From: Desulfurellales bacterium
GTDB lineage: Bacteria > Campylobacterota_A > Desulfurellia > Desulfurellales > Hippeaceae
NCBI GenBank assembly: GCA_027014115.1
Contig: JALWEJ010000079.1
Span: 1 to 64,000, forward strand
DNA: 64,000 bases
Direction of reading: 5' to 3'
Shown: positions 8,309-11,759 of the stretch, piece after piece
Layout of the letters: each line of letters starts with the position of its first letter
How positions within the stretch are numbered: position 1 is the stretch's first letter
Position numbers and translations under genes: made by a program
Notes under the pieces: generated by a model
Databases searched by the model: none
What the model was told of the DNA's origin: nothing
What the model saw: only the letters and a program-made list of their open reading frames with translations

Positions 8309-8613
8309 ACTTTACCCCCTTCGTTTTTTGTTTTATTTTTATCATATACGGCTCATTTTTCAAGTTTTCTTTCTTTGGCATTATGGGATTGAATTTGTAT
8401 GGTTTAATTGATACTCTTGAAAAAGTGAATTGATAAAGGCTGTGAGTATAGATATTTATGTTTAATCCCGATTGTGGGCATAATGCTGTATATTTTTGAA
8501 CCTCACATTCTTGACCATGTTTTTGATTTTAGATATACTGAAAATCGTCGGAGACAGAAATATGAGTGGATTTTTGGGTAAAAATGATAAAAGAAAAATA
8601 TAAACAATTGTGT
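8309..8613. other. Non-coding stretch upstream of ridA and left of the cassette island
   Basis: About 300 AT-rich bases between the ridA start and the left edge of the island. A 60-codon minus-strand frame at 8462-8644 has no ribosome site and no recognisable protein character. I see no RNA gene, terminator or clear promoter boxes. It presumably holds the promoter of the minus-strand run. Confidence 0.5.
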
Positions 8614-8631
8614 TTAGCGCGCCAATTTGGT
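8614..8631. repeat. Left imperfect 18-bp direct repeat of the island
   Basis: TTAGCGCGCCAATTTGGT matches 15 of 18 bases with 9595-9612, which lies immediately beyond the pfkA stop. The two copies bracket the cassette-like island. They may be a target duplication or two related recombination-site halves. Confidence 0.45.
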
Positions 8632-8661
8632 GGAATAACAACAATAGATGATATACAAACG

Positions 8662-9500
8662 TTGTAGGGCATTAGAAAAGTAAACCTAAAAAATAGATTA
8701 TTAAAAAAATGAAATTTAATAAATCAGAAATAAATACTGTAAAAAGAGGGGCGAAAAAAGCTACTTATGATAAATCTGAAATATATTCAATACTCGACAA
8801 AACTGAAATTTGTAATATTGCTTTTATTTATAACAATAAAGCATTTGTTCAACCTATAAATTTTGGGAGACTTGACAACAAAATTTATATCCACGGCTCG
8901 CAAAAGAATAGAATGACAAATGCCTTGTTGGAAACAGGAGAAGTTTGCTTAAATGTAATGATTTTAGACGCAATGAAATTAACCCGTTCCGCATTTAACC
9001 ATTCTGTTAATTATCGTTCTGTAATGGTTTTTGGCTCTGTGAAAGAATTAACAAATGATAAAGATAAACTGAAAGGTTTGAAAACGATTATAAATCATTT
9101 TGTTCCAAATCGTTGGGAATATTGTAGAAAACCGAATGAAAAAGAATTAAAAGCAACAAGAGTATTAGAAATAACAATTAAAACAGCATCTGCAAAAATT
9201 GCAAACACGCCACCATCTGATAATAAAGATGATTTAAATCTTGATTTTTGGGCAGGAACAATTCCTGTTAAAAAAGTTTATGGTTTTCCCATATCTGATG
9301 AATTTGTAAATAATAAAGCTGAAATTCCAAATCATATTTCAGATTTTATCAAAAGGAAAAATAATGAATAACGCCCTACAACAAAAAATATAGTGCATTT
9401 GGCAGATAGTTCTATAAATGAAGATGATAGCAATAAATAAACATAGTGCAAAACTGAAAATTTTAAGCGTTGAAATGCCAAACGCACCATATTTAAACCG
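8662..9500 (+). mobile_element. Integron-cassette-like insertion carrying one gene
   Basis: An 839-bp unit with the expected topology of an integrated gene cassette. It begins with TTGTAGGGC right after a G (8661) and contains one plus-strand gene filling most of its length. After that gene comes GCCCTACAAC (9373-9382), which is perfectly complementary to 8661-8670. An inner hairpin pair follows (9391-9403 with 9477-9489), and the unit ends at the G of a second GTTGTA (9500-9505). In integrons the cut falls between G and TT of the R' core, so a cassette's 5' end should pair with its own R'' arm, as seen here. The gene is opposite in direction to its neighbours and lacks a Shine-Dalgarno sequence. 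No integrase gene is in the window. Confidence 0.65.
8709..9371 (+). CDS. Pyridoxamine 5'-phosphate oxidase-family flavin-binding protein (NimA-like)
   Basis: A 220-residue protein of the Pyridox_ox_2 / NimA split-barrel group, which binds FMN or a related flavin. Members include nitroimidazole-resistance proteins and uncharacterised reductases. The N-terminal KRGAKKATYDKSEI segment, the FVQPINFGRLDNKIYIHGS strand pair, and the LTRSAFNHSVNYRSVMVFG block (Arg, Asn-His, Tyr-Arg-Ser) match that family. There is no ribosome site: the ATG follows a run of A's, as is usual in Bacteroidota, which fits transfer from such a host. It is the only gene of the cassette-like unit and the only plus-strand gene in the first 11.7 kb. 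Confidence 0.82.
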   Translation: MKFNKSEINTVKRGAKKATYDKSEIYSILDKTEICNIAFIYNNKAFVQPINFGRLDNKIYIHGSQKNRMTNALLETGEVCLNVMILDAMKLTRSAFNHSVNYRSVMVFGSVKELTNDKDKLKGLKTIINHFVPNRWEYCRKPNEKELKATRVLEITIKTASAKIANTPPSDNKDDLNLDFWAGTIPVKKVYGFPISDEFVNNKAEIPNHISDFIKRKNNE

Positions 9501-9507
9501 TTGTATG
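9373..9507 (+). repeat. attC-like imperfect inverted repeat downstream of the cassette gene
   Basis: Outer arms GCCCTACAAC (9373-9382) and GTTGTATG (9500-9507) pair over GTTGTA. Inner arms TAGTGCATTTGGC (9391-9403) and GCCAAACGCACCA (9477-9489) pair with two mismatches. The loop between is about 73 bases, and a second TAGTGCA occurs at 9444-9450. The nested R''-L''-L'-R' order is that of integron attC sites, although the cores deviate from the strict RYYYAAC/GTTRRRY consensus. Confidence 0.6.
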
Positions 9508-9594
9508 AAATGTCAAAACGAGGTGATTGTTTTTATTATCGTTTGTCATATACCCAACAGCTGACTGCGAGCAAATGTAATAAATATTGGTAAA

Positions 9595-9612
9595 TTAGCA
9601 CAACAATTTGGT
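9595..9612. repeat. Right imperfect 18-bp direct repeat of the island
   Basis: TTAGCACAACAATTTGGT, a 15/18 match to 8614-8631. It ends two bases before the last base of the pfkA stop codon, so the island abuts the 3' end of pfkA without damaging it. Confidence 0.45.
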
Positions 9613-9614
9613 TT

Positions 9615-10580
9615 TTATATACCGGACATTTTATATGCCAGTTTTAGAATATTTTCTTTTATTCTGTATTTGCCGGATACTACTTTGTCTATTGTTTCCA
9701 TAGAGAAATATCCGTTTTTGTATGTAACCACTCCGTTTGGCATGCTGTTTTTCAAGAGGGTGTTTAAACCGAAATCAATAAATTCAAAACCCATAAGTCT
9801 GTCATAAACTGTCGGATTTCCACCTCTTTGAATATGACTGAGTATTGAAATTCTCGAATCTAGATTTAGTCTGTTTTCAATCCATTCTTTTATGGTTTCT
9901 GTTTTACCTGTTCCCTCTGTAACAATGGCTATCAGGTAGTTTCTACCAGCATTTAATTCGTTTGACAGCCTTTTTTCGAGATTGTTCATGTTTGGTTCAA
10001 TTTCCGGTATAATACACAGTTCAGCCCCGCTTGTAATGGCTGAAACCAAAGCAAGATAACCGCATTCTCTACCCATAACTTCAATTACAAAGGCACGCCT
10101 GAACGATGATGCAGTATCCCTTATATTGTCTATTGCAGAGCGTATTACATTGAGTGCCGTATCTACACCGAGACAGTATTCTGTCAAATTTACATCATTA
10201 TCAATTGTAGCGGGGATTCCAACAAATTTTACGCCAAAATCATCATAGAACTGTTTCAGTGCTCTAAATGAGCCGTCACCGCCAAGTACAACAAGTTTGT
10301 CTATATTGTTTTTTGCAAGATTGTTAAACGCCTGCTCTCTGAATTTTTTTTCAAAAAATCTTTTGGAGCGGGATGAGCGTATTATTGTCCCGCCTTTGTG
10401 TATAATGCCGGATACATCTGTGTGGGAGGCTTTTTTTATGTGTCCGTCAATCATTCCGCTTAAGCCATCATATATAAAATACGGCTGCGTATTTTCATTA
10501 ATGCATTTATCCACAAATCTCCTGATTGCGGGATTCATGCCTGCGCAGTCACCACCCGAACACAATATACCTATACCCAT
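9615..10580 (-). CDS. pfkA: ATP-dependent 6-phosphofructokinase
   Basis: Phosphorylates fructose 6-phosphate to fructose 1,6-bisphosphate in glycolysis. The 321-residue length is that of bacterial PfkA. Seen are GGDCAGMN (9-16) at the ATP site, GGDGS (100-104), PATIDND with catalytic Asp127, and MGRECG (about 169-174) for substrate. Gly103 in GGDGS and the absence of Lys in PATIDND indicate the ATP rather than the pyrophosphate type. A ribosome site AGGA lies 8 bases upstream. The anchored protein gene upstream ends 26 bases before the start, so the two may share a transcript. Confidence 0.95.
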   Translation of the reverse strand: MGIGILCSGGDCAGMNPAIRRFVDKCINENTQPYFIYDGLSGMIDGHIKKASHTDVSGIIHKGGTIIRSSRSKRFFEKKFREQAFNNLAKNNIDKLVVLGGDGSFRALKQFYDDFGVKFVGIPATIDNDVNLTEYCLGVDTALNVIRSAIDNIRDTASSFRRAFVIEVMGRECGYLALVSAITSGAELCIIPEIEPNMNNLEKRLSNELNAGRNYLIAIVTEGTGKTETIKEWIENRLNLDSRISILSHIQRGGNPTVYDRLMGFEFIDFGLNTLLKNSMPNGVVTYKNGYFSMETIDKVVSGKYRIKENILKLAYKMSGI

Positions 10581-10605
10581 TTTTGTATCCTATATCCGTG
10601 TATAT

Positions 10606-11658
10606 TTAATTTCCAAATTCTATTTCGATTTTTGAGAAAATAGAAGTGATATTTTTTGAACCCATTGCAAGATCGCCTAAGCTTAATTTGTTTTTGTTTA
10701 TGAGTTTTATTACCAATTTTTTTGACTTTGAGGTTAAGAAATTTTCAAGGGGTTTGGCAAGTTTGTCACCGAATGGGCTGTTTTTAAGGTTTTGAAGCTG
10801 TTTTTTTATTAAGATTTCTTTTGTTGTATGTTTTTCTTTTGCTTCCTGAGCGAGCATTCTGTCAACCACACCTTCGTTTTTTATTGTTATCTTCATAAAA
10901 ACAGGTTTGATTTGCATAACTTTTCCCATTATATTTGCCAAAACCATAAAATTGTTTTGGTTTTGTTTGACCTGTTTGAGGATTCTGTTTATGCCTTTTG
11001 CATCAACATTTTTCAAATACATTGAATAGGCAATGCCGAGATTGTTATGAAAGTTTAATTCGTAATTTTTTATGTTGACGGTTTTCTTGTTTATATCTGT
11101 TATCATATTTATGTTTACTGAAATGGGATTGTTGATTTTTATAACCTTTTGTAATGCTTGGGTTTTTTTGTTTTGGTCTACTGCAAATACAAGTCTGCTT
11201 AATCTAATACCCTCTATTTTACCTACAAATTTTGATGTAATATCCTGTTGTTTTTCTATATCAAAGACGGCATATGCGGCTTTTGCTATTTCTTTGTCTA
11301 TGAGTTTTGGCGGGGATTGTGGATTTAGGTTTATGAATGAAATATTGTTGAGCCTAAATCTGTAGTCTTTATTCCAACTGCCATCGATTACGGCATTTTC
11401 GCATTTAATTATGCCTACATCTTCTGCAGTCATCTGGTTTTGGATGCTGAATTTTACATGTTTTATCGTAATCGTATGGGAGAATATATCGGCTTCTACA
11501 TCGTCATAATCGACAAGAGATTCAAGGTGTTCATCTTTGATTATTTTGTTTATTGTTTTTAAAGCTTTGTTTTTGGCATAGAGGTTTGCACCGTAATATC
11601 CACCTGCTGCCAATACGCCGATTATGATTAAAATAAGAAAAAATTTTATTGCTTTCAT
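10606..11658 (-). CDS. Membrane-anchored periplasmic protein of unknown function
   Basis: A 350-residue protein with one N-terminal transmembrane segment (about residues 5-25, FFLILIIIGVLAAGGYYGA) and the remainder predicted in the periplasm. The body alternates short beta strands with polar turns, somewhat like AsmA/DUF945-type envelope proteins, but I recognise no diagnostic motif. The start at 11658 is chosen because GGGGGG lies just upstream; a frame extension of 11 residues further upstream lacks a ribosome site. It lies divergently from mobB. Confidence 0.65.
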   Translation of the reverse strand: MKAIKFFLILIIIGVLAAGGYYGANLYAKNKALKTINKIIKDEHLESLVDYDDVEADIFSHTITIKHVKFSIQNQMTAEDVGIIKCENAVIDGSWNKDYRFRLNNISFINLNPQSPPKLIDKEIAKAAYAVFDIEKQQDITSKFVGKIEGIRLSRLVFAVDQNKKTQALQKVIKINNPISVNINMITDINKKTVNIKNYELNFHNNLGIAYSMYLKNVDAKGINRILKQVKQNQNNFMVLANIMGKVMQIKPVFMKITIKNEGVVDRMLAQEAKEKHTTKEILIKKQLQNLKNSPFGDKLAKPLENFLTSKSKKLVIKLINKNKLSLGDLAMGSKNITSIFSKIEIEFGN

Positions 11659-11759
11659 AACCCCCCCTTTTTTTTCAAATAATATACACAAAAGTCCGGC
11701 AAAAATAAAGAGGCTTTACATATTAGAGATAAAAAGTTATGAATAAGCAGGAGGCAAAC

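Follow-up and report, generated by a model that had tools for sequence, protein, structure and literature searches.

Surveys and reviews of integrons select integrases by the IntI-specific insertion (PMC2426708, PMC9668308). The insertion has been called essential, yet it is not fully conserved in the "integron-like" subgroup of Smyshlyaev et al. (2021) (PMC8138268). In Bacteroidetes, recombinases without cassettes were all that was found at first; a single complete integron followed later, from Salinibacter (PMC9024848). Gut Bacteroidales also carry clusters for recombinase-associated acquired interbacterial defence (rAID), in which a tyrosine recombinase precedes short genes that share its orientation and have conserved motifs between them (PMC12247911). 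Among environmental attC sites, only about 10% have been assigned to a taxon (PMC10963911).

The DNA analyzed here, 64,000 nucleotides from a Desulfurellales bacterium (hereafter the window), carries an integrated gene cassette on the plus strand at 8662-9500, called by a generic cassette detector from 8661 over 9373 to 9500. Its 5' end, TTGTAGGGC (8662-8670), directly follows G8661 and pairs with its own R'', since GCCCTACAAC at 9373-9382 is a perfect complement of 8661-8670 over 10 bases, and its right end is G9500|TTGTATG. The window cassette thus shows both the G|TT boundary and the complementarity of the 5' end to its own R''. An earlier sequence-only reading had described this unit with its single plus-strand gene, its 10-base complement and its terminal G9500, and all of these were present. 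Taken by itself the complement is weak, because a 10-bp inverted repeat with arms at least 150 nt apart occurred in 168 of 300 shuffles of the AT-rich kilobase. It gains weight because both cassette ends are fixed independently of it, the left by homology to attI sites and the right by homology to attC sites found behind other genes.

The cassette gene (8709-9371, plus strand) encodes a 220-aa split-barrel flavin-binding protein of the Pyridox_ox_2 family (PF12900, 114 bits, 6e-33). It had been labeled NimA-like, which needs correcting: with 35.4 bits against NF000261 (Nim), where the curated cut-off is 260, the protein is only remotely Nim-like and scores far below the threshold for a NimA-type nitroimidazole reductase. 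Its best plasmid homologue, from Aureibacter, is 41% identical. Because the other 24 genomes of the class hold no close homologue, we regard the gene as horizontally acquired.

Behind the gene lies the attC site (9373-9505, minus strand), delimited by its bottom-strand fold and by homology to other attC sites. In the fold, the R box pairs 9377-9383 with 9499-9505, a short and asymmetric central spacer sets 9384-9385 against 9495-9498, an L stem of 19 bp pairs 9386-9404 with 9476-9494, and the loop covers 9405-9475. The sequence-only reading had named a lack of attC-like folding of the bottom strand as grounds for rejecting the cassette, and such folding was found, at -14.8 kcal/mol (z -3.04) with none of 200 shuffles as good; the top strand folded more weakly (-13.1 kcal/mol, z -2.25). 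A DNA search recovered attC sites 70-80% identical to this one behind other genes, on contig C17 of the same genome and in G022, a genome of the same class.

About 80 bp of the flank to the left of the cassette recur many times in the genome itself and in relatives, and by homology to sequence 3' of recombinase genes we delimit an attI-like site at 8584-8661 (plus strand), up to the crossover G8661|TT. Over 31 bp of this site, contigs C77 and C30 of the same genome carry an identical (100%) sequence immediately downstream of the recombinase gene, and the matches break off at the contig ends. Copies 75-88% identical, in matches of 65-90 bp, are found on C17 and C25 and in G003, G022 and G024, and the same element lies 3' of Neomarinimicrobiota recombinases (L080 and L081). 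An alignment of 10 copies revealed an inverted repeat inside attI (8608-8644, plus strand; arms 8608-8617 and 8635-8644) with compensatory changes among the copies. Over these 10 copies, 88% of cells are paired compared with 33-62% when the arms are slid, and 2 of 500 shuffles gave as high a covariation score; in the window the repeat is imperfect. A short leader ORF, MIKEKYKQLCLARQFGGITTIDDIQTL, runs across attI and ends in the TTGTAG of the cassette (8584-8667, plus strand). Its frame and length are constant over 10 copies, its third-position excess is only slight and amounts to no clear coding signal, and it may aid translation of cassette genes that have no Shine-Dalgarno sequence.

Further upstream, at 8511-8539 (plus strand), a promoter-like TTGACC-17-TATACT is the best of 13 consensus matches in the region, with 10 of 12 positions (shuffle mean 7.9 matches). 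Similar boxes precede attI on C17, G003 C60, G006 C41 and G012 C171, and precede the intact recombinase on C77. We propose that the window box is the predicted former promoter of the recombinase or platform, now facing the cassette. Between it and attI, 20 bases at 8562-8581 (plus strand) may perhaps be the remnant of a recombinase gene end, atgagtggatttttgggtaa against atggatgatttttttgaataa, a weak resemblance seen by eye.

Other copies in the genome and the class show what such a platform can look like. The recombinase gene is carried on C77, while C30 carries a copy with an internal deletion that adjoins attI (L013:4450-4783); both contigs end inside attI, which suggests several copies in the genome. 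The attI element follows decayed recombinase copies on C25 and in G022 and G024, and on contig C60 of G003 a recombinase promoter-like sequence is joined straight to attI. Further cassettes of the same genome lie on C17, C25 and C73. These and the cassettes in G022 and G024 are attached to the same type of attC and carry unrelated genes (a methyltransferase on C17, an HNH-like gene by eye on C73), in arrays of up to three cassettes. Their 5' ends match their own R'' despite differing cores, as in TTGTAGCTC/GAGCTACAA, TTGGGCAC/GTGCCCAA and TTGTAGGGC/GCCCTACAA. A 1039-bp block is common to G022 C50, where it follows attI, and G024 C59, where it follows an attC. Its left break falls at the crossover and its right end is an ORF stop, not an attC, so that the block is only half evidence of mobility.

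On C17 (L012:7155-9242) there is a second recombinase-less promoter-attI unit, with a DNA methyltransferase and a partner gene that together are perhaps a restriction-modification cassette; another attC lies upstream, at 11519. In G022 there is also a disrupted canonical IntI in which the insertion is present (KYPNA motif; G022:C14:32420-33055, L179), in the same class as the genomes with the insertion-less system. As a cassette finder, the fixed core pattern GCCCTACAAC was discarded. With one mismatch allowed, its count in the same genome was not far above chance, and in Bacteroidota, where cores vary, it had almost no matches, and a core-free detector was used instead.

The recombinase on C77 (280 aa) matches Phage_integrase and has the catalytic residues. 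It scores 241 against NF040815, above the cut-off of 220, and 211.5 bits against the integron integrase model TIGR02249, below the cut-off of 265. In an alignment with IntI4 (2a3v), residues 207-246 of IntI4 have no counterpart, i.e., 40 residues are missing. The distance from Arg-I to HxxR is 91-96 residues in all 51 family members measured and in C77, compared with 133-134 in IntI1, IntI2 and Vibrio IntIA. The family is therefore one without the IntI-specific insertion of about 40 residues. In a maximum-likelihood tree, which took in only three IntI sequences on a long branch, it forms a clade (98/99) sister to IntI (100/98), with XerA, XerC and XerD outside; grouping IntI with XerC/D was rejected (AU p 0.013). 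In an earlier tree, which had two further, long rows, the placement of IntI with respect to the family was not settled. The open frames of the Bacteroidota recombinases (L196-L224) are mostly 350-500 aa and exceed the 280-aa form of the window's lineage by about 100 aa at the N terminus, and an N-terminal extension in these members is likely.

Among 84,980 species genomes, a scan found 231 relatives of this recombinase. The best 80 of the 231 are mostly from Bacteroidota, with others from Neomarinimicrobiota, Campylobacteraceae, Spirochaetales, Phycisphaerales and Cyanobacteria. Recombinase and cassettes share one orientation in the family, attI adjoins the recombinase gene, and the first cassette lies at attI. 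Chained cassettes began right after the recombinase at 28 of 51 loci, compared with 26 of 320 control gene ends (p 6e-14). A first, loose detector had given many false hits and was tightened with control anchors. The replicate used a stricter setting on an evenly drawn sample of Bacteroidota genomes, meant to avoid choice of loci by the scan, and the recombinase profile was found in 95 of 297 of these. Downstream DNA was taken for 40 positions from the higher-scoring part of the list, 35 of them with enough sequence. A cassette stood behind the recombinase at 23 of the 35 loci and at 2 of 39 control gene ends (p 2e-8), with at least two chained cassettes at 12 of the 35, and the first cassette began 41-237 nt after the recombinase stop. 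The detector demands pairing with the own R'', and pairing is hence not an independent statistic in the 28/51 and 23/35 counts; the comparisons with controls are. At roughly a third to a half of the recombinase loci, no cassette was detectable.

A bias of attC folding toward the bottom strand is expected of integron-type recombination. The bottom strand was the more stable in 52 of 68 attC sites of the relatives and in 42 of 48 of the Bacteroidota replicate, where the bias held at 22 of 23 loci. Control segments inside the same cassettes had the opposite sign and showed no preference for the bottom strand.

Set beside the known systems, the family shares with integrons the cassette anatomy, the G|TT crossover, the pairing of each 5' end with its own R'', the bottom-strand-biased folding of attC, arrays that start at an attI next to the recombinase, and a recombinase clade sister to IntI. 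It differs in that the recombinase has no IntI-specific insertion, the mark by which published surveys define integron integrases, that recombinase and cassettes run in one direction, and that attI lies 3' of the recombinase gene, holding an inverted repeat in the window's group. The C77 recombinase also resembles the "integron-like" subgroup, both in matching NF040815 above cut-off and in that the insertion is not fully conserved there; however, neither the description of the subgroup (PMC8138268) nor that of NF040815 links insertion-less members to cassette arrays. On the grounds of sequence, we judge the insertion-less cassette system to be a variant of the integron kind and the window copy a decayed member of it. 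In the open-licence literature, we did not find earlier recognition of an insertion-less family with cassette arrays.

The rAID clusters have the same anatomy of recombinase and array. They were described as arrays of immunity genes and not termed integrons (PMC12247911). They also differ from the window's group, where attC sites are longer, at about 130 bp, and cassette genes come in many kinds. Our comparison is with one rAID-like array, on a plasmid of B. ovatus BFG-107 (L177:5719-12798, NZ_CP081918.1). Its recombinase is 58% identical, its genes are of the rAID-like immunity type, and in its short intergenic hairpins the R'' agrees with the beginning of the same cassette, for example ATTACCAAT / ATTGGTAAC. 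The window locus is not itself a rAID cluster (a recombinase with at least two co-directional immunity genes), as it has one non-immunity gene and no recombinase.

We consider the window locus to be the recombinase-less remnant of an integron-like platform, consisting of promoter, attI, one cassette and attC, with a probability of roughly 0.8. The observations behind this are the homology of attI and attC, the complementarity of 5' end and R'', the bottom-strand bias of the family, the missing insertion and the arrays after the recombinase; from these we infer recombination activity, expression, and the direction and order of events. An intact system would have a short tyrosine recombinase of the insertion-less sister group of IntI, read in the direction of the cassettes and probably transcribed together with them, and an attI about 20-240 nt past the stop codon of its gene. 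Each circular cassette would bring an attC that forms a hairpin on its bottom strand, and the recombinase would join the cassettes at G|TT of attI, leaving each one with a 5' end that is the other half of its own attC and the newest cassette next to attI. In the window, a cassette would have been captured at attI and the recombinase gene lost from behind the promoter up to its last codons, so that the cassette is held in place with its gene facing what was once the recombinase's promoter. The cassette is possibly still mobile in trans through the C77 enzyme. Because the possible recombinase trace in the window is very short, the loss of the gene there is deduced from the series of decay states in the relatives and other copies.

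The chief competitor is that the promoter-attI-cassette block arrived as a whole, together with pfkA, through a genome rearrangement or some other mobile element, and was by then already recombinase-less. In G001, of the same genus, ridA (L174:6085-6477) abuts the homologue of 10606-11691, and pfkA is elsewhere (L173). The whole of 8309-10605, platform remnant and pfkA included, is absent there between homologous genes. The locus has thus been rearranged, which makes movement of the whole block a serious rival to loss in place, and several recombinase-less attI copies per genome fit it too. The interval 8309-10605 nevertheless contains no transposase ORF, and the other copies show stepwise decay of the recombinase; we hold block movement to be unlikely, if well worth considering. 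The comparison with G001 also bears on the sequence-only reading, whose "core gene run" was inexact in view of this arrangement. That reading had suggested looking for an empty ridA-pfkA site in relatives; no exact empty site was found, and G001 has none of the stretch between ridA and the next gene.

A solitary cassette of the attG type is an insertion in a genomic site other than attI. A canonical cassette put at such a secondary chromosomal site by a proteobacterial-type IntI would leave a single attC without integrase. The window does hold a single cassette, with no recombinase nearby, as had been claimed, and shares the absence of a linked integrase with solitary cassettes at attG sites and with CALIN and SALIN elements; G022, of the same class, holds the canonical IntI pseudogene with the insertion. 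The left boundary, however, is not a generic genomic site and is instead the attI-like repeat found directly 3' of another recombinase, and the genome has no TIGR02249 match at E 1e-60, so that we consider this origin improbable and do not class the locus with attG-type cassettes. The proposal of a single inserted integron cassette therefore stands as to its integron type and horizontal acquisition; it does not stand as to a lone cassette in an ordinary intergenic site, since the unit occupies an attI-like site with promoter-like sequence, nor as to a canonical cassette, since the system is not IntI-type and the recombinase on C77 lacks the insertion. Least probable is coincidence, i.e., an ordinary acquired gene followed by a palindrome (terminator or repeat) whose edge matches upstream sequence by chance. 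Inverted repeats of 10 bp are indeed common in this AT-rich stretch, but no Rfam family or terminator-like site was found at attC, and the recurrence of attI and attC with other genes, in the same arrangement and with matching variable cores, refutes this reading in the main.

On balance we favor the broader view that cassette capture of the integron type is performed by a large clade of recombinases lacking the IntI insertion, one that about a third of Bacteroidota genomes carry and that has been passed on to other phyla. Cassette recombination would then not depend on the insertion, which the classical IntI lineage may have added later. Should the family prove active, standard searches have missed a large system of gene capture in a major phylum, and the family would test whether the insertion called essential is so and help to place the origin of integrons. 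It would also give the arrays of gut rAID systems a mechanism and suggest an origin for part of the numerous environmental attC sites whose source is not known.

On a plasmid of Acinetobacter indicus (L175:4528-6700, NZ_CP041297.1), tet(X3) is immediately preceded, in the same orientation, by a recombinase 56% identical to that of C77. The gene is in turn followed by an attC-like left arm, with a resolvase gene and ISVsa3 beyond it, and the 5' boundary of tet(X3) shows no pairing with the R'' that remains downstream. By its sequence context, tet(X3) may derive from a cassette of the insertion-less family, and this recombinase and the gut rAID clusters look like pieces of that family.
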